Shown here one piece after another: positions 1,478 through 13,939 of a stretch of DNA of 14,012 nucleotides. The stretch is from Candidatus Bathyarchaeota archaeon. Its GTDB lineage: Archaea; Thermoproteota; Bathyarchaeia; Bathyarchaeales; SOJC01. Each line of letters begins with the position of its first letter. The stretch's first letter is position 1. The DNA lies in NCBI GenBank assembly GCA_030608925.1, contig JAUWDF010000005.1, forward strand, positions 1-14,012. The letters are read 5' to 3'. Under the pieces are notes generated by a model. That model did no database searches. It saw only the letters and a list, made by a program, of their open reading frames with translations, and was not told the DNA's origin. The translations under genes and the position numbers were made by a program.

Positions 1478-3649
1478 TTAAGCTACAGGAGTTGTGGGCT
1501 TACGAAGCTTCCTCACTTGTTTGAGAAAACCCTTATACCAAGTTTCCATGTCGGGTGAAATCGTTGGACCTATTTGCGCTGCAGCATCCTTAAAATCAGC
1601 TGATGTCACTGTTTTTGACCCGATATTTTTCCGGAGAGCATTCAATGCAGCTTCCCGACAGAATGCTTGAATGTCTGCACCACTGTACCCCTTTGTCGTT
1701 TTAGCAAAAGATTTGACATCAATCTCTTCTTCCAAAGGCATATCTTTGGTGTAAATCTTGAAAATCTCCATTCGAGCTTCCTCGCCTGGCTCAGGCACGT
1801 AGATAAGCCTGTCGAATCGACCTGGTCTCAAAACTGCACTGTCAATGAGGTCGGGACGATTTGTGGCTGCAACTACAACTACGTCTTCTAAGCTGATAAT
1901 GCCATCAATCTCCGTTAAGAGTTGACTGATGACACGTTCAGCAACGCCACTATCTCCAAATCCCATACCTCTTCGAGGTGCCAGTGAATCAAATTCATCG
2001 AAGAAAATCACGGAGGGTGAAGCCATTCTTGCCTTTCGAAACACTTCTCTTATTGCTTTTTCCGATTCCCCAACCCATTTGCTGAAAACTTCTGGACCTT
2101 TTATAGTAATGAAGTTCGCTTCACTTTCCGTGGCAACTGCCCTTCCGAGCATGGTTTTACCGCAGCCTGGAGGGCCAAACAAAAGGATCCCCTTTGGTGG
2201 TGTGATTCCCAGTCGATTGAAGATTTCAGGGGTTTTCAGAGGCCATTCAACAGCTTCAATCAGTTGCTGCTTTACAGCCTTCAATCCACCAATATCAGTC
2301 CATTTCACCGTGGGTGTTTCTATATACACTTCACGCATAGCTGTGGGAGTAATTTCTTTGAAGGCATTAAGGAAATCTTCCATGCGCACATCCATCTTCT
2401 CTAAAACACTGGGTGGAATGTGCTCTTCCTCCAAGTTGATTTCAGGGAGATATCGTCTCAAAGATTTCATAGCAGTTTCTCTGCCTAATGCAGCAAGATC
2501 TGCTCCCGTATAGCCATGTGTCGTATCCGCAAGCTTCTTCAAATCAACTGATTCCGCTAAAGGCATTCCCCGTGTATGGATCTGCAAGATTTCATGGCGT
2601 GATTGTTTGGTGGGGACACCTATCTCTATTTCTCGATCAAAGCGACCAGGTCTTCGAAGTGCAGGATCTAGAGCACCGGGTCGGTTTGTGGCTCCAATGA
2701 CAATTACATTTCCCCTTCCGCTTAGACCATCCATTAATGCCAAAAGTTGAGCGACTACTCTCCTTTCAACTTCACCTGTGACCTCTTCCCTTTTAGGTGC
2801 AATTGCATCTAATTCATCTATGAAAATTATGCCTGGAGAGTTTTGCTGAGCTTGCTTAAAAATCTCCCGTAGTCTAGCTTCAGATTCGCCATAGAACTTG
2901 CTCATTATTTCAGGTCCATTTATCGATAAGAAGTTAGCCTCCGACTCGTTAGCTACGGCTCTTGCAAGTAAAGTCTTACCACACCCTGGAGGACCATGGA
3001 GGAGAACACCCTTTGGTGGATCAATTCCTAATCGTTGGAAGAGCTCAGGATGTCGCAAGGGTAGCTCCACCATCTCCCTTACACGTTGCATCTCTTCATG
3101 AAGCCCTCCTATGTCTTCATAAGTAGTTCTAGGGACACCCTTCACTTCAGGAGCTGGCTCGTTGAGAATCTGAAAGTGCGTGTCTTTAGTAATGCGGACT
3201 ATACCATGTGGTCGACTTTTTGTTACGGTGAAAGGAATCGCGTGACCTAACATCATGACAAGTGTTGTATCGCCTTCAACAAAGGTTCGTTCCATCAGTC
3301 TATTCTTAACGAAATTTGTAAAGTCTTCGTCAACATTTAGACGCATATCAACAGGTGCTAGAACAACGTTTGTAGCGTTCTTGACCTTGACAGGTTTAAT
3401 CGTGACGTACTCGTTTATAACGCCACCTGCATTCTTACGAGTGAACCCATCAATTCTGATAATGCCGCGATTTTGGTCTTCGCTGTAAGCTGGCCACGCG
3501 ATTGCGCTAGTAGTGCGTTTTCCTGTAATTTCAATTACATCACCTGCACTTATTTCCAGTTTTTGCATGGTGCTTTGGTCTAAGCGTGCAATGCCACGCC
3601 CTACATCTCTTTGTTTTGCATCGCCAACTCGAAGCTGCATTTCGCTCAT
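1478..3649 (-). CDS. cdc48: CDC48/VCP-type AAA+ ATPase (VAT)
   Basis: A 723-residue double-ring AAA+ unfoldase, full length for archaeal CDC48. Domains in order: N-terminal double-psi barrel plus CDC48_2 (about 1-165), D1 (about 175-400) and D2 (about 445-680). D1 has Walker A GPPGCGKT at 219-226, Walker B IIFIDE at 274-279 and arginine fingers in [10 protein letters not shown] (331-340). D2 has Walker A GPPGCGKT at 492-499, Walker B VIFFDE at 547-552 and LRPGRFDR (607-614). It extracts and unfolds proteins in the cytosol, feeding the proteasome in archaea. The C-terminus ends in ...TTPVA and has no HbYX tripeptide. The ATG at 3649 is preceded by AGGAAAGTGAG and by a TATA element about 60 nt upstream, so it has its own promoter despite lying 84 nt after aEF1B. 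The small winged-helix gene follows. Confidence 0.97.
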
Positions 3650-3705
3650 TTTCTCACTTTCCTGTTACAGTTAAAAGTTATTTGAAGTCGAAAAGCTTCG
3701 GGTGA

Positions 3706-6814: not shown

Positions 6815-8062
6815 CTAAACTAATTCCTTCACTGTTCCATCATATTTCTTTATTCGCGCTAAGACTTTTTCCGAAAACTCAGGTAGCACTTCAATTACAA
6901 GGTCAGCATAATTGTGTTCATAGTTTAGCTTCTTCACAATTGTTTCCTTGAAGAGCCATGATATAAAGGACATTGTTTCGTTTGAAATCGGTATAGAAAA
7001 GCATACACGTACGTAACTTTTGAAGTGCTTCGCAAGCTCTTCTTTCAGAAGATCAAGGTTTTCACTCTCAAGAGCGGATATTGGAACAATGTTTAGTGCG
7101 AATTCCTTTAGAGCCTCTTTCTGTTCTTCAACCTCATTTCTAGACAGCAAGTCAATCTTGTTTAGGGCAGTAACGATCGGAATTCCGTACGCTCCAATTT
7201 TCTGGATAGTATCAAGGTTTATTGAAAGCTTTCTCTTGATTTCCTCAAGAGGTTGGTTGGCATCTATGACCAAGAGGATAAGATCGGAAAAAATCGTTTC
7301 TTCCAGGGTTGACTGAAATGCCTTTATTAATTCTAATGGCAGTTTATCTATGAACCCAACAGTGTCTGTTAAGAGAGTTCGTTTTCCAAACAATTCAAAT
7401 GCTCTTGTCGTCGTTGAAAGTGTTGTAAACAATCCTTTCCCTATAGGAACAGCTTCGTTCACTAGTGTATTAAAAAGAGTACTTTTTCCAGCGTAAGTGT
7501 ACCCTGCCAATGAAATCGAAGCAAAACCAAGTTCTTTCCTCCGTGTTCTGTGTAAGCTTCTTTTTCTTTTAGTGCTCTCTAGCTTGTCTTGTATTGTCTT
7601 TACTTGCCTACGGATAGATTCATGATATACGTCAACTTCGTATGCTCCTAATCCCCCGAAGCCCGGCTGTTCTTGTTTTCGTGCAAGGCGCACTTTTTCC
7701 CTTGCATGAGCCATTTCATAGCGAAGTCTTGCAAGCTGGATTTGAAGTTTTGCCTCTGTTGTTGATGCTCTGTGTGTGAACATTTCAAGAATGAGTTGAA
7801 ATCTATCTATTACTTCAACGTTTGTTTCTTTTGCCAGATTGTATACTTGAACAGTTTTCAGCCTATTGTCGAAAATCACCTTCTGGGCATTTTTCTCTTT
7901 TACAAGACGAGTGAGTTCTTCTACTTTGCCTCTTCCTATTTGAAAACGAGAACTCGGTTTCCGAATTTGTTCAATTGCTGCAACAGTAACATATCCCGCC
8001 GCTTCGCCCAGACTCTTGAGTTCTTTCAAGCTGTTGAGTTCGCCTTTTAGTCGTCGTTGCAC
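6815..8062 (-). CDS. hflX: GTPase HflX
   Basis: A 415-residue HflX-family GTPase (TRAFAC, OBG-HflX group). An N-terminal HflX domain contains FQIGRGKVEEL (40-50) and EVIDRFQLILEMFTHRASTTEAKLQIQLA. A coiled linker carries a reduced glycine patch GFGGLGAYEVDVYHESI (134-150) instead of the bacterial GGxGxRGPGE motif. In the G domain, G1 is GYTYAGKST (187-195), G3 is DTVG (233-236) and G4 is NKID (301-304). HflX binds the large ribosomal subunit and in bacteria splits stalled or heat-damaged ribosomes. The listed start is GTG 8062. However, the frame stays open upstream and reads IIRAILVQRR, matching the usual HflX N-terminus, with GGAGGA placed correctly for an ATA at 8080. The real protein may therefore be six residues longer. 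Confidence 0.94.
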   Translation of the reverse strand: MQRRLKGELNSLKELKSLGEAAGYVTVAAIEQIRKPSSRFQIGRGKVEELTRLVKEKNAQKVIFDNRLKTVQVYNLAKETNVEVIDRFQLILEMFTHRASTTEAKLQIQLARLRYEMAHAREKVRLARKQEQPGFGGLGAYEVDVYHESIRRQVKTIQDKLESTKRKRSLHRTRRKELGFASISLAGYTYAGKSTLFNTLVNEAVPIGKGLFTTLSTTTRAFELFGKRTLLTDTVGFIDKLPLELIKAFQSTLEETIFSDLILLVIDANQPLEEIKRKLSINLDTIQKIGAYGIPIVTALNKIDLLSRNEVEEQKEALKEFALNIVPISALESENLDLLKEELAKHFKSYVRVCFSIPISNETMSFISWLFKETIVKKLNYEHNYADLVIEVLPEFSEKVLARIKKYDGTVKELV

Positions 8063-8076
8063 AAGGATTGCTCTTA

Positions 8077-8601
8077 TTATTTCGCTTCCTCCGATGGCTT
8101 CTTCTTAATCAGATCACCTAATGTTAGTATCTTTGATGGAGTTATTTTTGAAGGCTCGTGGGATGTGAAGCTTTCGTCAGTTCTTGGAACTAATAGCTGT
8201 ATTTTTAGTGCACGTTGAAGTTTCTCCACTAGTCTGTCGTCGGGTTTCATTTTTTGGTTTTCTAACTTTTTAAGTACTGAAATTTTTTCATTGATTCTCC
8301 GACCCAAATCTTCATGAGTGGAAGCTGACTTTTCTCTTGCTTTTTTTATTCGAATTCCGTAATCCTGAGCCAGTTCCATGGAGGATTCTAGAGGAGATTT
8401 CTGCCCTTTGGTCGATTTCTGCAGTCTCCTTCTTTGTTGTTTCTGAACGTTTCTCCTTGGTAGTTTCAACTTTGGGATTTTCAGTTCCCAGCTTATTGAG
8501 CCCAAGACTGAACAATCCTGACATACGACAAGTCGTGCTCCCTCAATAATAGTCTTGTACGGTTTACCTATTATACCCTTACCGCAAACTTCGCATTGCA
8601 A
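8077..8601 (-). CDS. mbf1: Multiprotein bridging factor 1 (archaeal MBF1)
   Basis: A 174-residue archaeal MBF1. An N-terminal zinc ribbon has C3-x2-C6 and C27-x2-C30, followed by a basic flexible linker (about 40-75, rich in K/R/Q) and a Cro/XRE-type helix-turn-helix (about 78-138, including YGIRIKKAREKSASTHEDLGRRI and KISVLKKLENQKMKP). A polar tail ends LGDLIKKKPSEEAK. In archaea MBF1 associates with ribosomes and may also act in transcription. The start is TTG at 8601, because a GGTGAT ribosome-binding site lies exactly 6 nt upstream and the next upstream in-frame codons run into a stop. Its 3' end contains the GGAGGA that appears to serve hflX. The 238-nt spacer upstream carries repeated TGTGCA motifs. 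Confidence 0.92.
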   Translation of the reverse strand: MQCEVCGKGIIGKPYKTIIEGARLVVCQDCSVLGSISWELKIPKLKLPRRNVQKQQRRRLQKSTKGQKSPLESSMELAQDYGIRIKKAREKSASTHEDLGRRINEKISVLKKLENQKMKPDDRLVEKLQRALKIQLLVPRTDESFTSHEPSKITPSKILTLGDLIKKKPSEEAK

Positions 8602-8839: not shown

Positions 8840-9937
8840 TTATTGGTTGTTGAGGATCTTGTTATAAATATCTTCATATTGGGGGACGATTTTTTCCGGA
8901 GTGTATTTTTCAAGAACCTTCCGTCTTGCGTTTCTGCCAAAATCCTCTTGAAGGTTTGGATCACTTAAGATTCTGAGCGAGTGTTCCGCGAGCTCTTCTG
9001 TATCACCGACTTCGACTAGGTAGCCATCTTCTCCATGAGAGATCAACTCACGAAGTCCGCCAGTATCGCTTGCTACAACTGGAACCTGGCAGCTCATAGC
9101 TTCTAGCGCAGCCAGTCCAAAGCTTTCATCCTCTGAAGGTAAGAGAAACAAATCTGACTTTCCAAGAATATCGTGAACGTTCTTCATATTTCCCAAGAAT
9201 TGAGTCCTATCGTGAACTTTGAGGTTCTTGGCGAGTTTCTCAGCCCTGGGGCGTTCAGGGCCATTTCCAATTAGGAATAAACTACACTTGATCTCCTCAG
9301 AGATTATCTTAAAGGCTTTGATAATGTCTGGGATTCGTTTTATGGGTCTAAAATTAGAGGAGTGACATATAATCTTCTGTGTTCTGTCTTTTCCAAGTTT
9401 CTTGAAACGTTTTGGATTAACAAAGTTCGGGATTACTGTTATCTCCCTTTGAATGTCGAATTTTGTCAGTGTAAGTTTTTTCAAATATTCAGAAACTGTT
9501 GTCAATTCATCACTTTGTTGCATACTAAACTGGGTGACTTCTTTATATGACGGATGGCTTCCAACAAGATACGAATCTGTGCCATGAAGAGTCGTAACCA
9601 GCTTCAAAGAGTCTTTACATATCTTTTTAGCTAGGTAGGCTGACACCGCATTAGGAACAGCATAATGAGAATGAACTATGTCAAGAGCATAATCCCTAGT
9701 TACTTCCACTAATTTTGAAATCAAAGCTAGAGAATAACAACATGGAACTCGCTTGAAAAGGGGATAGCTGAGCAACTCTACTTTGTGGAAGAAGAAATCT
9801 GTCTTCTTTTCGAATCTAACAGGCTTATCATAACTGACCAGGTGCAACTCATGTTTCTTAGATAATAGATGAGCTAATTCTGTAGCTATTATCCCGCTCC
9901 CACCATACGTGGGAAAGCAGACAATACCTATCTTCAT
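8840..9937 (-). CDS. bshA: BshA: N-acetyl-glucosaminyl L-malate synthase (bacillithiol step 1)
   Basis: A 365-residue GT-B fold, GT4-family glycosyltransferase, close in length to bacterial BshA (about 377). The match to BshA is specific rather than generic GT4: the opening KIGIVCFPTYGGSGIIATEL (2-21), DIVHSHYAVPNAVSAYLAKK (86-105), TTLHGTDSYLVG (115-126), SNFRPIKR (194-201), LIGNGPE (222-228) and the retaining-GT motif E271-x7-E279 in ESFGLAALE. BshA transfers GlcNAc from UDP-GlcNAc to L-malate in the cytosol, giving GlcNAc-malate. It is the last gene of bshC-bshB-bshA, and its ATG overlaps the bshB TGA by 4 nt (ATGA). Alternatives would be another GT4 acting on a different hydroxy-acid. The neighbouring bshB and bshC make that unlikely, although acceptor identity cannot be read from sequence alone. 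Confidence 0.88.
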   Translation of the reverse strand: MKIGIVCFPTYGGSGIIATELAHLLSKKHELHLVSYDKPVRFEKKTDFFFHKVELLSYPLFKRVPCCYSLALISKLVEVTRDYALDIVHSHYAVPNAVSAYLAKKICKDSLKLVTTLHGTDSYLVGSHPSYKEVTQFSMQQSDELTTVSEYLKKLTLTKFDIQREITVIPNFVNPKRFKKLGKDRTQKIICHSSNFRPIKRIPDIIKAFKIISEEIKCSLFLIGNGPERPRAEKLAKNLKVHDRTQFLGNMKNVHDILGKSDLFLLPSEDESFGLAALEAMSCQVPVVASDTGGLRELISHGEDGYLVEVGDTEELAEHSLRILSDPNLQEDFGRNARRKVLEKYTPEKIVPQYEDIYNKILNNQ

Positions 9938-10611
9938 TTTAACGCTACCACCGGATCATCTATCATCAATGGGCCATCAAAGAAATATGGTTCACCCCGC
10001 TCAACACCTATCTGCAAACCAAAAAACTGATCTCTCAGTTTTACTCTTTCGAGAAGGCCTCCACGTTTGAGAACTAGGTTTGTCTGGGATTTGTAGGCTT
10101 TGATAGATTCTAATTTCTTTTCATAGCATCCACTGACATCAACTATAAAAGAAATATCAAATACCTTGTGAAGCATATAATAGACAACGATTCCAACCGA
10201 GTATGCTTCATGATCCGTTTTTATTTTGGGGAGTTTTGCAAGAAATAAAGCTTTTTTCGCCAATATATTTGCTATCGCATGGTCAGGATGATGACCATCC
10301 CCATAGGGAGCAATAATGAAGGGGGGTCTATATTTTCGAATCATATCAGCCAGTCTGGTAGACTTGCTAAAGCTTGAATCTAGGTGACAATCTCCGAAAT
10401 CTAGATTTTCACGAACTTCTACTCCTAGAATCTCAGCTGCTTTTCTAGCTTCTTGAATTCGCACTTCTCCTGTCCCCTCTGTCCCCATCTCGCCCTTTGT
10501 CAGATCTATAATCCCAACCCGATATCCTTTCTGATTCATCTTCGCAATGAGACCACCACAAGATAACTCAATATCATCAGGGTGAGGACTCAGACCAAGA
10601 ATGTCTAGCAT
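9934..10611 (-). CDS. bshB: BshB-type Zn deacetylase (bacillithiol step 2)
   Basis: A 225-residue PIG-L/LmbE-superfamily metal-dependent N-deacetylase. Zinc and catalytic residues are all visible: H10-P-D12-D13 in SPHPDD (H10 and D13 as ligands, D12 as general base) and H108-P-D-H111 in HHPDHA (H111 as third ligand). The segments GYRVGIIDLTKGEMGTEGT and the C-terminal SFIVDVSGCYEKKLESIKAYKSQ are typical of BshB1 and relatives, the latter containing the conserved VDVS...K..A..AYKSQ block. BshB removes the acetyl group from GlcNAc-malate to give GlcN-malate. Its ATG overlaps the bshC TAG by 7 nt, and its stop overlaps the bshA ATG by 4 nt. The superfamily also includes mycothiol MshB and GlcNAc-PI deacetylases; the operon decides for BshB. 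Confidence 0.87.
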   Translation of the reverse strand: MLDILGLSPHPDDIELSCGGLIAKMNQKGYRVGIIDLTKGEMGTEGTGEVRIQEARKAAEILGVEVRENLDFGDCHLDSSFSKSTRLADMIRKYRPPFIIAPYGDGHHPDHAIANILAKKALFLAKLPKIKTDHEAYSVGIVVYYMLHKVFDISFIVDVSGCYEKKLESIKAYKSQTNLVLKRGGLLERVKLRDQFFGLQIGVERGEPYFFDGPLMIDDPVVALK

Positions 10612-12176
10612 TCAATCACTTTATGTATCCCATATCGAGACTTCGAGAATTCCTCGTGAACTGTTCTTAAGAACCTATCTCCGAATTTTATCAGGTATTC
10701 TAAGACGTTTATTTGTCTTTCCTGTAGATGCTGGTTTGGAAAAAGATTATTAAAAGTTTTGTAGATTTGTTGCCTAGCCAGTAAATTATTTTCTTTTAAT
10801 TGGGCAGCGACCTTGTTTTCTAAAGCTTCTACTTCTCGCAATATCTTTCCTCTAGTCAGATAAGATGGAGCTAAGAGTGTTTTATCGATGGTTACAGCTT
10901 TTTTAGTTATTTTATCCATACTTAATAAAATCCTATTCTTGAATGATTTGAAGACATCTTCGATTCGCCCTTTGGCCAATTTTTTCAATAGTTTTTCTGG
11001 ATTCTTGAACTCCAGTATTTCCGCATTATACTTCTTTATGACCTTCCGTATTTTTTTCTCAACTATAGTGGCTCCAAACCTAGGGAAAATTACAGGCATT
11101 TCCATCGAGAAGAAATTATACATTCCAGTTAGTTGTGCAAAGTACTCTATCTCGCTTGACCCAGCTACATAGCCAAATGTTGGGAAAAGGAGATCTTGTG
11201 TTATAGGTCGTATGATAGCATTTGCGCTGAATGCAGAAGGATTTTCGTTTAGAAGTTTGAGTAACTCCTTTTGAGAGTAAGTGTCTCTTGCACAGTGAAA
11301 GTCTCCTTTATGTGTGACCTGCAACCGTTTTCCTTTGTCGTTGATAATGAAAAAATTACAGATGTTGGATTTTTTGTGAATTTTCGGTTTATAGCCGAAC
11401 TTACTAAGTTTGGCACTGGTTTCTGCCAAGATACGTGTACACTCAATGGGGTTTCTGATTAATCTTGCGAAAATCGGAGTCATTAATTCCCTCACAAATC
11501 CAGGCTCAATCATGATTAACCCAAATTTGCCTAGAATATGTGTCATAAATCTTGAGAAGAATTCGCCCATAGTGTCTGAGGTATGAATGAGACCCTCGAT
11601 TTCAATCAACAGCTTTCGCTTGAATTCCGAGCGGGGAGTGACGAGGTCTATTTCTGACAGCATTTTCTTGGCAGCGGTTTTATTAAGGCGCAAGTGCGAA
11701 AAAGCCACGCCTTTTGATTTTCTAGTGTAATAGATGTTGATTGGCTCATTTTGCTTAAAAATTGTGACGTGATTGATTTCAGCAAAATCATGGTCTTCGG
11801 ATGCATTCCAGAATATGGGAACGAGTGGATGTTTCGGGTTGGATAGTTTTTCGCACAGAGTGATGGCAGAGATAGCTTTGTAAATCGTGTATAGGGGGCC
11901 AGAGAATATGCCAGGCTGTTGGCCAGTTATAATTGCGTAGGTGTTGGTTTGTGAAAGTGAGTGGATGTTTTTCATTACTGTCTTTGGGGCGTTTATTCTC
12001 TTGTTATAATCAAATAATTTGTCTATAATTTCTTCTCTATTTCCACTGAATTCTCTTATTTTTGGTTCCCTAAAATGGTTATGAAATACTTCTCTGATTG
12101 GACCAGTATAATTCAGGTAATCAACAGCTATTTTTCCTGAAGCTACGAAGCTGTAGGGTAATTCATCAATGCTCAA
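10605..12176 (-). CDS. bshC: BshC: putative cysteine ligase of bacillithiol synthesis
   Basis: A 523-residue protein, near the about 540 of Bacillus BshC. Diagnostic blocks are in order: AIITGQQPGIFSGPLYTIYK (81-100), PIFWNASEDHDFAEINHV (120-137), GLIMIEP (219-225), the IIRPITQDLLFPTFGYVAGS block (321-340) followed by EIEYFAQL, MPVIFPRFGATIVE (360-373), and a C-terminal coiled-coil with NLFPNQHLQERQIN (477-490). BshC joins cysteine to GlcN-malate, completing bacillithiol, and is the family unique to this pathway, so it anchors the identification of the whole cluster. The start is TTG at 12176. A stop lies three codons upstream and GTGA is correctly spaced, so no ATG option exists. It is the first gene of the operon. 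Oddly, the last residue is a cysteine. Confidence 0.9.
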   Translation of the reverse strand: MSIDELPYSFVASGKIAVDYLNYTGPIREVFHNHFREPKIREFSGNREEIIDKLFDYNKRINAPKTVMKNIHSLSQTNTYAIITGQQPGIFSGPLYTIYKAISAITLCEKLSNPKHPLVPIFWNASEDHDFAEINHVTIFKQNEPINIYYTRKSKGVAFSHLRLNKTAAKKMLSEIDLVTPRSEFKRKLLIEIEGLIHTSDTMGEFFSRFMTHILGKFGLIMIEPGFVRELMTPIFARLIRNPIECTRILAETSAKLSKFGYKPKIHKKSNICNFFIINDKGKRLQVTHKGDFHCARDTYSQKELLKLLNENPSAFSANAIIRPITQDLLFPTFGYVAGSSEIEYFAQLTGMYNFFSMEMPVIFPRFGATIVEKKIRKVIKKYNAEILEFKNPEKLLKKLAKGRIEDVFKSFKNRILLSMDKITKKAVTIDKTLLAPSYLTRGKILREVEALENKVAAQLKENNLLARQQIYKTFNNLFPNQHLQERQINVLEYLIKFGDRFLRTVHEEFSKSRYGIHKVIEC

Positions 12177-12253
12177 TAAAACTCACATTCTATTGTCCAA
12201 AGTGGTTTCGAAATTATTTAGTTTATGGAGGCTCTTTGAGAGTGAGTTGTCGG

Positions 12254-12263
12254 ATTAAATATA
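12254..12263 (-). promoter_or_regulatory. Candidate TATA element for the bshCBA operon
   Basis: The minus strand reads TATATTTAAT about 80 nt upstream of the bshC TTG. Initiation near 12232 would leave a leader of about 55 nt. The 190-nt spacer between the amidohydrolase and bshC holds nothing else beyond a 23-codon open frame (12274-12345) that I do not accept as a gene. Confidence 0.4.
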
Positions 12264-12366
12264 GAGAAGCCCTCTAAGGATTTTCCTCTTCATGGACACA
12301 AAATATTTTCAGTGCTTTTAGTATTGATTCCTCGGCTATTTTCATGGTTAAAATGAGTTTTCTGTT

Positions 12367-13332
12367 TCACACATCGATTTTTAGTAGTTTCGCTGCATTT
12401 TTTTGAAAAATCTTTTCTATACTCTCTTCTTCAAGTCCAATAGATCTACAGATTCTAAGTTGTTCTCTCAGATATGAGAGACTGAATCCCCGTGGGAAAT
12501 AGCTTGAATCGCTGCCAAAGATTAAACGATTAGGGCCAATGGTTTCAATAGCTTTTCTAAAAAGGAGCTTCAGATTGATTTCGAATGGCATCCAACGCAT
12601 CCATCGATTCGATCCGGATGTGTCTACGTAAATATTAGGACATGACCAGCATAGTTGAAGAAGCTCTCTAAGATATCCAGCGCCGAAGTGTGGGATAACA
12701 AAGGGTATTCTTGGAAACATTTTAGCTACCTCCCAGAGAGTCAAGGGGTTCATGTTCCTTAAATCCAAGGCCATTCCTCCACCTCCGCCTAATATACCAA
12801 AATGAATTAATATTGGAATTTCGAGTTTCTCTGCCATTTCCCAGACGGGATATATAGATTTCTCATCAATTGGTTCCCTCTGAGAGGAAGCTATAATTTT
12901 ATAGCCCTTCAACATTAGCTTCTTGACTGCGTATTCCAGTTTGATAGCTGCATCATTTGAGAATATATTGTGATGAGCGAACCCTGTAAACTTCTCTGGG
13001 TACTGTTTGATTATCGTAGCTAGATTCTCATTTCCACCTCCTGTAACAAAGTTCACTCTGCTCACACCTTTTTCAATGAGATCTGTGGCCCACTTGGATG
13101 CTTGCTCTTCATCTGAGCGAATTTCGGGTTCGGGGGGTTTAAATCCCCAGAGTTTTCTCATTTCTTCGCCATTTCGAGCTGATTGTTCCATTAGCATCTG
13201 GGTATTTTTTTCGCCGTACCGTTCAACTAGTCTCTGTCTCCATGAGACTCTCCAATCCAGCCAGTTAGCAGTTGGAAAATGAGCGTGGAAGTCTATCACT
13301 TTCAATCCATTAAATATCGTGTGTCCCTCCAT
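12367..13332 (-). CDS. Amidohydrolase-2 family metal-dependent TIM-barrel hydrolase
   Basis: About 321 residues from the ATG at 13332, of the ACMSD/amidohydrolase-2 family (COG2159-like). Seen: DFHAH at 14-18 (H16 and H18 as metal ligands), LIHFG with H177, IPHFG with H215, NIYVDTSG (233-240) and FGSDSSYFPRG (272-282) with the family aspartate D275. This full metal site implies an active hydrolase or decarboxylase; the substrate is unknown. A GGGGG run (182-186) follows H177. An in-frame TTG at 13350 would add six residues, but a TATA element at 13371-13380 places transcription start close to 13350, so the ATG is preferred. It precedes bshC by 190 nt on the same strand, which raises but does not show a link to thiol metabolism. 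Confidence 0.85.
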   Translation of the reverse strand: MEGHTIFNGLKVIDFHAHFPTANWLDWRVSWRQRLVERYGEKNTQMLMEQSARNGEEMRKLWGFKPPEPEIRSDEEQASKWATDLIEKGVSRVNFVTGGGNENLATIIKQYPEKFTGFAHHNIFSNDAAIKLEYAVKKLMLKGYKIIASSQREPIDEKSIYPVWEMAEKLEIPILIHFGILGGGGGMALDLRNMNPLTLWEVAKMFPRIPFVIPHFGAGYLRELLQLCWSCPNIYVDTSGSNRWMRWMPFEINLKLLFRKAIETIGPNRLIFGSDSSYFPRGFSLSYLREQLRICRSIGLEEESIEKIFQKNAAKLLKIDV

Positions 13333-13370
13333 TATTGTTATGTTAAGCAATTCATTCAGTAGTTTAACTT

Positions 13371-13380
13371 TTTTATATAC
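13371..13380. promoter_or_regulatory. Bidirectional TATA element between divergent genes
   Basis: The plus strand reads TTTTATATAC and the minus strand GTATATAAAA. Both orientations fit archaeal TATA boxes. On the minus strand it lies about 43 nt before the amidohydrolase ATG. On the plus strand it lies about 80 nt before the PUA gene TTG. One element could serve both genes. Confidence 0.5.
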
Positions 13381-13391
13381 CGCGCGTAACT

Positions 13392-13456: not shown

Positions 13457-13939
13457 TTGTTAGACAAGTTTCTACTTAAGATCCGTTCCATCGCAGATTA
13501 TCAGTTTGGACGACACGCAGGAGAAAGCCTTTTCCCAAATAATGTAGACATATTATTCTCTAGACGAACGGGTAGAATTCGACATGTTTATTGGAAAGGT
13601 AAGTTACTCGCAACCTTGCGACCTACTGATGGTTTTTTTTCATTAACACTTGAAGGCGCTCGTAGCTTGTCTAAGCTTGTACCTCAACGTTTGTGGGTGA
13701 AAGTTCAGAACGATGTAACAGGTTTTATCTCTAAGGGTAGAACGGTCTTTGCGAAACATGTTATTAACTGTGACATTGAAATTCGACCTGGAGAAGAAGT
13801 TGTTGTTTTGAATAATCAAAACACTGTTATAGCTGTAGGCAGAGCTGTCTTAAGTGGAGAGGAAATGAAAGCATTCAATCATGGTGCTGCTGTCCGTGTT
13901 CGATGGGGGAATGCGGAAAAAAGAGAAGAAGAAAGATGA
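13457..13939 (+). CDS. Stand-alone TGT_C2/PUA-domain RNA-binding protein
   Basis: A 160-residue protein resembling the C-terminal part of archaeal tRNA-guanine transglycosylase without the catalytic barrel. A TGT_C2-like region (about 1-72) contains SRRTGRIRHVYWKGKLLATLRPTDGFFSLT, and a PUA domain (about 78-152) contains VFAKHVINCDIEIRPGEEVVVLN and AVGRAVLSGEEM. Archaea encode such free-standing PUA proteins, presumed to bind tRNA or rRNA and possibly linked to archaeosine modification; the exact role is not visible here. The start is TTG at 13457 with GGTGA 4 nt upstream, and no in-frame ATG fits. It is transcribed divergently from the amidohydrolase. A TATA-like GTTTATAG follows its stop and probably serves the next gene. 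Confidence 0.82.
   Translation: MLDKFLLKIRSIADYQFGRHAGESLFPNNVDILFSRRTGRIRHVYWKGKLLATLRPTDGFFSLTLEGARSLSKLVPQRLWVKVQNDVTGFISKGRTVFAKHVINCDIEIRPGEEVVVLNNQNTVIAVGRAVLSGEEMKAFNHGAAVRVRWGNAEKREEER

Follow-up and report, generated by a model that had tools for sequence, protein, structure and literature searches.

A predicted bacillithiol-type operon in Bathyarchaeia with linked amidohydrolase and DinB-family partner genes

Can an archaeon make bacillithiol (BSH) or a thiol close to it, and what would it use such a thiol for? The question is raised by a contig of a Candidatus Bathyarchaeota archaeon (C47, GenBank JAUWDF010000005.1), the whole of which, 14,012 bases in length, was analysed and is termed the window here; it belongs to a metagenome bin of 1.19 Mb in 246 contigs that is 64.7% complete. 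Judged from their sequences, three of its minus-strand genes are those of BshA, BshB1, and BshC, running in the order bshC, bshB, bshA from position 12176 down to 8840; bshC overlaps bshB by 7 nt, and bshB overlaps bshA by 4 nt. On balance, they probably provide a bacillithiol-type thiol that would be used mainly for the conjugation and detoxification of electrophiles, via a DinB-family S-transferase and an amidohydrolase acting as conjugate amidase. The three genes are:

8840..9937, minus strand: bshA, GT4 glycosyltransferase, predicted N-acetylglucosaminyl malate synthase, 365 aa
9934..10611, minus strand: bshB, predicted LmbE/PIG-L deacetylase of the BshB1 type, 225 aa
10605..12176, minus strand: bshC, putative cysteine-adding enzyme, TTG start, 523 aa

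Each protein scored above the cut-off of its NCBIfam equivalog model, namely TIGR03999 for BshA (465.3 bits against 273.7), TIGR04001 for BshB1 (224.8 against 182.5), and TIGR03998 for BshC (414.2 against 265.8). Both Pfam domains of BshC (PF10079 and PF24850; Rossmann-like, coiled-coil), the PIG-L domain of BshB, and the GT4 domains of BshA were also recovered, and solved relatives were found in 4wbd for BshC (E 1.6e-50), 2jjm for BshA (E 2.1e-92, phmmer), and 1uan (E 1.5e-36) and 6p2t (E 4.4e-34) for BshB. A preliminary description of the locus, made from the letters alone, had recognised the three genes by family motifs, had taken the overlaps to mark a single unit, and had regarded the family placement of BshC as a point on which its proposal could fall. 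The quoted motifs are present in the three proteins, both overlaps were confirmed and recur in related loci, and the placement of BshC holds.

As far as alignment can tell, the checked active-site residues are retained in BshA and BshB of the window. H118, G119, D121, N195, F196, R197, K200, E271, S272, and E279 of BshA were identical in all 41 BshA sequences compared, bacterial and archaeal, with E271 and E279 forming the catalytic E-x7-E pair of GT4 enzymes; the ESFG stretch, said to touch GlcNAc in Staphylococcus BshA (PMC10361700), is also present. As for a loss of acceptor-binding residues in BshA, which the preliminary description had considered, the check covered these set-invariant residues, all of which are kept. 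Following the residue roles given in PMC4101496, BshB keeps its metal (Zn) ligands H10, D13, and H111 and its base D12, together with R51, H108, and D110. The counterpart of Arg109 (Bacillus numbering), taken as a mark of BshB1 membership, is His107 in the window; other loci of the window's kind (type I hereafter) have R, H, or Q at this position, for which I, L, or E is found in the sequences of L015, L038, L039, and L029, and since it varies across the set it is not strictly defining for BshB1. Replacement of Arg109 by Lys was reported to lower the activity of Bacillus BshB (PMC4101496). The GQQ, SEDHD, and QD residues of BshC were invariant across 19 aligned sequences; a 2015 review states that the activity of BshC had never been demonstrated in vitro (PMC4360819).

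The operon recurs within the class. BshC exceeded the cut-off in 13 of 256 genomes, and a 14th (G055) holds a truncated copy at 249.4 bits; the positive genomes all belong to one order, within which they are spread across families f1, f4, and f5, with no match in 6 of the 13 f1 genomes. The C-B-A order was kept in all 14 type-I loci, to the extent of their contigs, and the same order is seen in Candidatus Bathyarchaeota archaeon records. The 4-nt overlap is found in each of the 13 loci holding both genes and the 7-nt overlap in 13 of 14. The exception, L089 (G190, C1:9138-10636), has a bshC frame broken near its 3' end, with the overlap lost, through either sequencing error or decay.

Restricted to positions 8840..12176, the preliminary description correctly delimited the three bsh genes and missed a conserved fourth, which precedes bshC and shares its strand:

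12367..13350, minus strand: Amidohydro_2 metal hydrolase family protein (PF04909, 121.7 bits), TTG start at 13350
12177..12366, minus strand: gap of 190 nt between the amidohydrolase gene and bshC, with no DinB gene in the window
13369..13381, minus strand: TATA-box-like sequence GGTATATAAAAAA, a possible promoter of the amidohydrolase-bshCBA unit, found by eye

An in-frame ATG at 13332 would give the amidohydrolase a better length fit to its relatives. The gene occupies this upstream, same-strand position in 11 of the 14 type-I loci, either with no gene in between (the window, L007, L008, and L009) or separated from bshC by an antisense DinB gene alone (L002-L006, L027, and L089). Its recurrence there and in the type-II clusters described below ruled out a chance neighbour. 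In L010 (G186), just the last 75 residues are left upstream of bshC (7671-7895); in the genome of L101 (G055), the gene lies elsewhere, together with a DinB gene, and it was not found in that of L090 (G059, 63% complete). Residues D20, H22, H24, H183, H221, and D281 are invariant in 20 full-length rows and 26 aligned sequences, and we take them to be the likely metal ligands. Outside the class, bsh loci fetched from Aerophobetes, Asgard, TA06, and Thermoproteota held no orthologue of the amidohydrolase, and among 15 genomes reached through these loci a match was obtained in 7, the best being 33% identical.

The antisense DinB-family gene, of about 160 aa, lies directly upstream of bshC in 8 of the 14 loci (L002-L006, L027, L089, and L090). 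The L002 copy (3201-3680) matched DinB_2 with 49.9 bits (cut-off 24.8). Its match to PF04978, the family of mycothiol S-transferases, was weak at 27.8 bits (cut-off 27); the L072 copy reached 41.9 bits with that model. BstA-H, which are bacillithiol S-transferases, belong to the DinB superfamily, as does Mst (PMC4360819, PMC5815605). The three metal-ligand histidines described for BstA are H67, H160, and H164 (PMC5815605); in the first DinB subfamily found here, H48, E132, H135, and H136 were identical in 23 of 23 full rows. The DinB_2 gene carried by the window's own genome (G000) at C147:53-568 (L122; 47.7 bits, cut-off 24.8) belongs to another subfamily; an H-x-x-x-H stretch can be seen by eye in its product, for which no solved relative was found at E <= 0.1. 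This gene adjoins one for a LysE-type exporter (670-1341, 81.7 bits); putative efflux genes likewise flank yfiT of B. subtilis (PMC4360819). A relative 54% identical to the C147 protein adjoins the amidohydrolase in G184, and in G182 the relative is located elsewhere. Of the f1 genomes searched, five carry bsh, and DinB_2 exceeded its cut-off in four of them (G186 fell just below), as against one of the six without bsh.

The linkage of both partners to bsh was observed directly across the 256 genomes. Carriers of bsh numbered 33, made up of 14 type-I genomes, 15 in which type-II BshC was matched, and 4 with BshA alone above the cut-off (G243, G247, G249, and G251); G069, G099, and G151, whose BshC-like protein is of a third and more distant kind, and G172, G173, and G175, with BshA below the cut-off, were excluded. 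Amidohydrolase orthologues were counted at an identity of at least 59% (26 genomes, six more with 34-36% hits at E <= 1e-40 being left out), and the first DinB subfamily at E <= 1e-8. The bsh genes were present in 25 of the 26 amidohydrolase carriers (exception G233; Fisher p ~1e-26) and in all 27 DinB carriers (Fisher p ~5e-31), both values ignoring kinship. By type, the amidohydrolase occurs in 12 of 14 type-I genomes and 13 of 19 other bsh genomes, and the first-subfamily DinB in 9 of 14 and 18 of 19, respectively. The two partner genes adjoin each other, apart from bsh, in G055, G250, and G253.

A second (type-II) bsh cluster was found in family f27 of the same class (loci L070-L085), most members of which keep both the amidohydrolase and DinB. 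It resembles the window in having BshA over the cut-off (393-419 bits) and the same amidohydrolase and DinB families, but differs in BshC and gene order. The best BshC match per f27 genome reached just 26-61 bits against the cut-off of 265.8; profile comparison nevertheless identified the protein as a true BshC relative (probability 98.6, E 1e-15, 410 columns), about 580 aa long, with an insert that is rich in cysteine and Zn-ribbon-like (by eye) and with the SEDHD stretch lost. Type-II BshB is also strongly altered, and ESAP replaces ESFG in BshA of L072 and L079, the two sequences inspected. The typical layout has bshB first, then the amidohydrolase gene and bshC; bshA lies on the opposite strand, in many cases accompanied by one or two DinB genes. 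Nine type-II loci have all three of bshB, amidohydrolase, and bshC in their open reading frame (ORF) table, and in eight of them the amidohydrolase is the middle gene. In L079, the amidohydrolase of G231 escaped the ORF caller; locus retrieval (as L062) and the protein search both show it. The f27 amidohydrolases are 59-68% identical to that of the window, and L079 BshA is 39.7% identical to its counterpart. Types I and II were separate in the BshA tree, which leaves out rows shorter than 330 aa and the third type, each with support of 100/100, and a single clade was not rejected by the approximately unbiased (AU) test (p 0.067).

The presence of the same downstream genes beside very different biosynthetic enzymes suggests that the partners act on a common product or its conjugates. 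A wider proposal may be put forward tentatively, as something a little short of an even chance: that the Bathyarchaeia possess an archaeal form of thiol-conjugation detoxification, with bacillithiol-type biosynthesis and a DinB S-transferase, in which a PF04909 amidohydrolase has taken the place of the LmbE-fold conjugate amidase, and that both partners are shared by two clusters whose biosynthetic enzymes are so unlike (BshA 40% identical, BshC barely alignable) as to make the replacement or remaking of one cluster probable, perhaps in favour of a variant thiol.

As to origin, the BshC tree, which leaves out L037 (outside the ORF cluster), L101, and the type-II and third-type BshC, places the window, 12 other Bathyarchaeia rows, and P0002 in one clade (100/100), whose sister group (99/97) is made up of five rows from Aerophobetes and three without a label, of which one is named Patescibacteria by a source; Asgard sequences form a separate clade (100/100). 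In the BshA tree, type I groups with Aerophobetes, Asgard, and one Thermoproteota sequence (99/93). Alignment A2 excludes L033. Gene transfer between bacteria and archaea is likely on these sequences. The preliminary description had favoured transfer from bacteria; passage between the domains fits the BshC tree, but the trees are unrooted and so do not give its direction. Protein searches listed the best 120 of 687, 1228, and 404 matches, and among the matches listed the nearest BshC was P0002 (source jgi, 85% identical); NCBI records already carry the name BshC for Bathyarchaeota proteins. In a separate search, the nearest bacterial BshC proteins, from Aerophobetes, are 42-46% identical. A partial BshC labelled Aminicenantes (P0105, 61% identity), also among the matches listed, reflects either a wider spread or a binning error.

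Further afield, a 398-genome sample of the phylum gave some BshC match in 7 genomes, over the cut-off just in the window's own, and 195 genomes of the Heimdallarchaeota (G585) phylum gave a match at E <= 0.001 in 108, over the cut-off in 8. Some of the Asgard matches below the cut-off are surely due to chance, falling in much longer frames; many, with frames 540-610 aa in length, could be representatives of a diverged kind. The order bshC-bshB-bshA is also found on Heimdallarchaeota/Asgard contigs (L016, L018, L019, and L022-L025), with other conserved neighbours and no amidohydrolase orthologue in the loci. One Asgard bsh neighbour resembles, by eye, an undecaprenyl-diphosphate synthase.

How, then, would the thiol be made and used? 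BshA would link UDP-GlcNAc with malate, BshB would take off the acetyl group, and BshC would attach cysteine to yield bacillithiol or a very close Cys-GlcN-hydroxyacid. The preliminary description had named bacillithiol or a variant as the product, and this is still the best inference, the three enzyme assignments being supported. The DinB-family S-transferase would then couple this thiol to electrophiles, and the amidohydrolase, whose amidase role is suggested by context alone, would cut the amide bond of the conjugate, returning GlcN-malate and freeing the cysteine S-conjugate for presumed export, as in a mercapturate-type cycle. In established systems, the DinB-family proteins BstA and Mst are thiol S-transferases, and Bca and Mca cut the conjugates (PMC4360819). 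A predicted Cys-GlcN thiol and a DinB-family S-transferase would be common to the Mst and Mca or BstA and Bca pathways and the present system; in contrast to Mca and Bca, the candidate amidase here belongs to PF04909 and not to the LmbE/PIG-L fold, so that the likeness is one of functional analogy only.

Several points weigh against this proposal. The known conjugate amidases have the LmbE fold, and BshB itself could serve as the amidase. The closest solved relative of the amidohydrolase, 3irs, is uncharacterised (E 3.9e-9), and the others include decarboxylases, which leaves the supposed amidase activity a guess made on contextual grounds. The gene is missing from 8 of the 33 bsh genomes. Its association with bsh appears confined to the Bathyarchaeia within the genomes searched, bar P0186, an amidohydrolase 73% identical and labelled Hodarchaeota among the matches listed, which either breaks that limit or is a binning error. 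The first DinB subfamily was not found in G000, G181, G182, G184, G186, and G245, and the other subfamily adjoins the amidohydrolase in G184 alone among the f1 genomes inspected. The product is a prediction from genes, and a thioredoxin-reductase-like protein could reduce its disulfide. The redox absences given next are weak, since completeness is 64.7% for the window's genome and reaches 90% or more in just 9 of the 19 genomes sampled.

In a rival reading, the thiol would act as a general redox buffer like that of Bacillus, the neighbouring genes being accessory or incidental; the preliminary description had likewise spoken of a redox thiol. Complete bshCBA with all members over their cut-offs would suit it, as would the distant flavoprotein reductase matches, possibly serviceable, in all 19 genomes. 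Among these 19 genomes (14 with bsh), however, YpdA exceeded its cut-off in none (3 of 14 controls did), and bacilliredoxin PF06491 was found in none (a control match in B. subtilis alone; YtxJ-type proteins were not searched), so that this part of the description is not upheld; YpdA matches below the cut-off occurred in 19 of 19, but at least weak ones were present in all 14 controls too. With neither partner detected, and with the amidohydrolase and DinB strongly linked to bsh, a conjugation role fits better than the classic redox buffer, which we consider unlikely. A stronger contender, though one we still rate as doubtful, is that the substrates of the amidohydrolase and DinB are not thiol conjugates at all; they might, for instance, supply a decarboxylase or lactonase to a pathway in which the thiol is no more than a cofactor. 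The decarboxylases among the solved relatives noted above are consistent with it, as is a DinB copy with a weak hit, below the cut-off, to PF11716 (mycothiol maleylpyruvate isomerase domain; E 0.058), but the sequence points to no such substrate.

The thiol might also be a variant and not bacillithiol itself, with another hydroxy-acid, another amino acid, or a modification made by the amidohydrolase. The His at the Arg109 position would agree with this, and the altered BshC and BshB of type II, with the ESAP of L072 and L079, indicate that the class tolerates change; yet the Arg109 position varies among the bacteria of the set too, the window's three proteins pass equivalog cut-offs, and BshA keeps ESFG and the invariant residues, which makes a variant an improbable outcome. 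By far the least credible explanation is an assembly chimera or bacterial contamination, a doubt also voiced in the preliminary description. It could draw on the fragmented, incomplete metagenome bin, on the Aerophobetes as holders of the nearest bacterial BshC, and on the partial BshC labelled Aminicenantes. It was ruled out by the archaeal flanks, the recurrence in the class, and the single clade of the BshC tree: the operon is found in 14 of 256 genomes, that is, in 13 besides the window's own, which makes a chimera unlikely, and the amidohydrolase-bshCBA order is repeated in four genomes of the window's family (G181-G184), each a single contig of 1.7-1.9 Mb. Archaeal genes flank the operon on both sides of the single 14-kb contig, as the preliminary description had held:

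8077..8601, minus strand: aMBF1 (TIGR00270, 126.1 bits against a cut-off of 110)
13457..13939, plus strand: stand-alone protein with TGT_C2 and PUA domains (PF14810, PF01472)

The archaeal flank genes checked by model also include CDC48 (over its cut-off) and TFIIE-alpha and DUF2110 domains. The protein at 13457..13939, 160 aa long, resembles the C-terminus of archaeosine synthase, matching positions 445-573 of the 575 of NF040592 below the cut-off.

The idea of archaeal bacillithiol genes is not new, given the homologues reported by Rawat and Maupin-Furlow in their 2020 review, with 39 InterPro hits each for archaeal BshA and BshC, mostly Asgard; BSH was undetected in archaea as of that review (PMC7278568). 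The remark of the preliminary description on the want of a well-described archaeal producer is to be read with these homologues in mind. A 2025 RefSeq BLAST survey reports, in its accessible text, no archaeon with a complete bacillithiol pathway (PMC12719100). Such hints had made it likely that a complete pathway would turn up in archaea. The families are those of the 2020 review; here they form a complete operon with BshB in Bathyarchaeia, joined by amidohydrolase and DinB partners that are unnamed in the accessible text of that review (PMC7278568). Within the literature searched, which left most subscription papers outside, these partners and the second cluster type were undescribed. Compared with bacillithiol biosynthesis in Bacillus, Thermus, and Bacteroidota, the window is alike in its three families over the cut-offs and its checked catalytic residues, and differs in its archaeal host, its overlapping C-B-A genes, and the lack of YpdA over the cut-off and of PF06491 in the 19 genomes, its product being a predicted one.

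Small-thiol use by archaea is poorly known, and the operon with its linked candidate detoxification genes gives exact proteins to test, the conserved partners and the second cluster type making the claim testable. Should the amidohydrolase cleave bacillithiol conjugates, it would constitute a new enzyme class in mercapturate-type detoxification. The finding also bears on the passage of thiol pathways between bacteria and archaea.

Some minor observations may be added. Scans of the window with Rfam and of BshC and the amidohydrolase with PHROGs gave no matches and no families, respectively, and a plasmid search with BshA returned one bacterial reference and nothing else. L086, L087, and L088 carry the third, even more distant BshC-like protein, adjoining a PIG-L deacetylase, and weak BshC matches of 20-28 bits over part of the model were seen in L106-L108 and L110, from genomes of two other families in the phylum, f61 and f30. 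On the Thermoproteota contig of L015, a gene for an OrfB/IS605-type transposase (7417-8559) lies between bshC and bshB.

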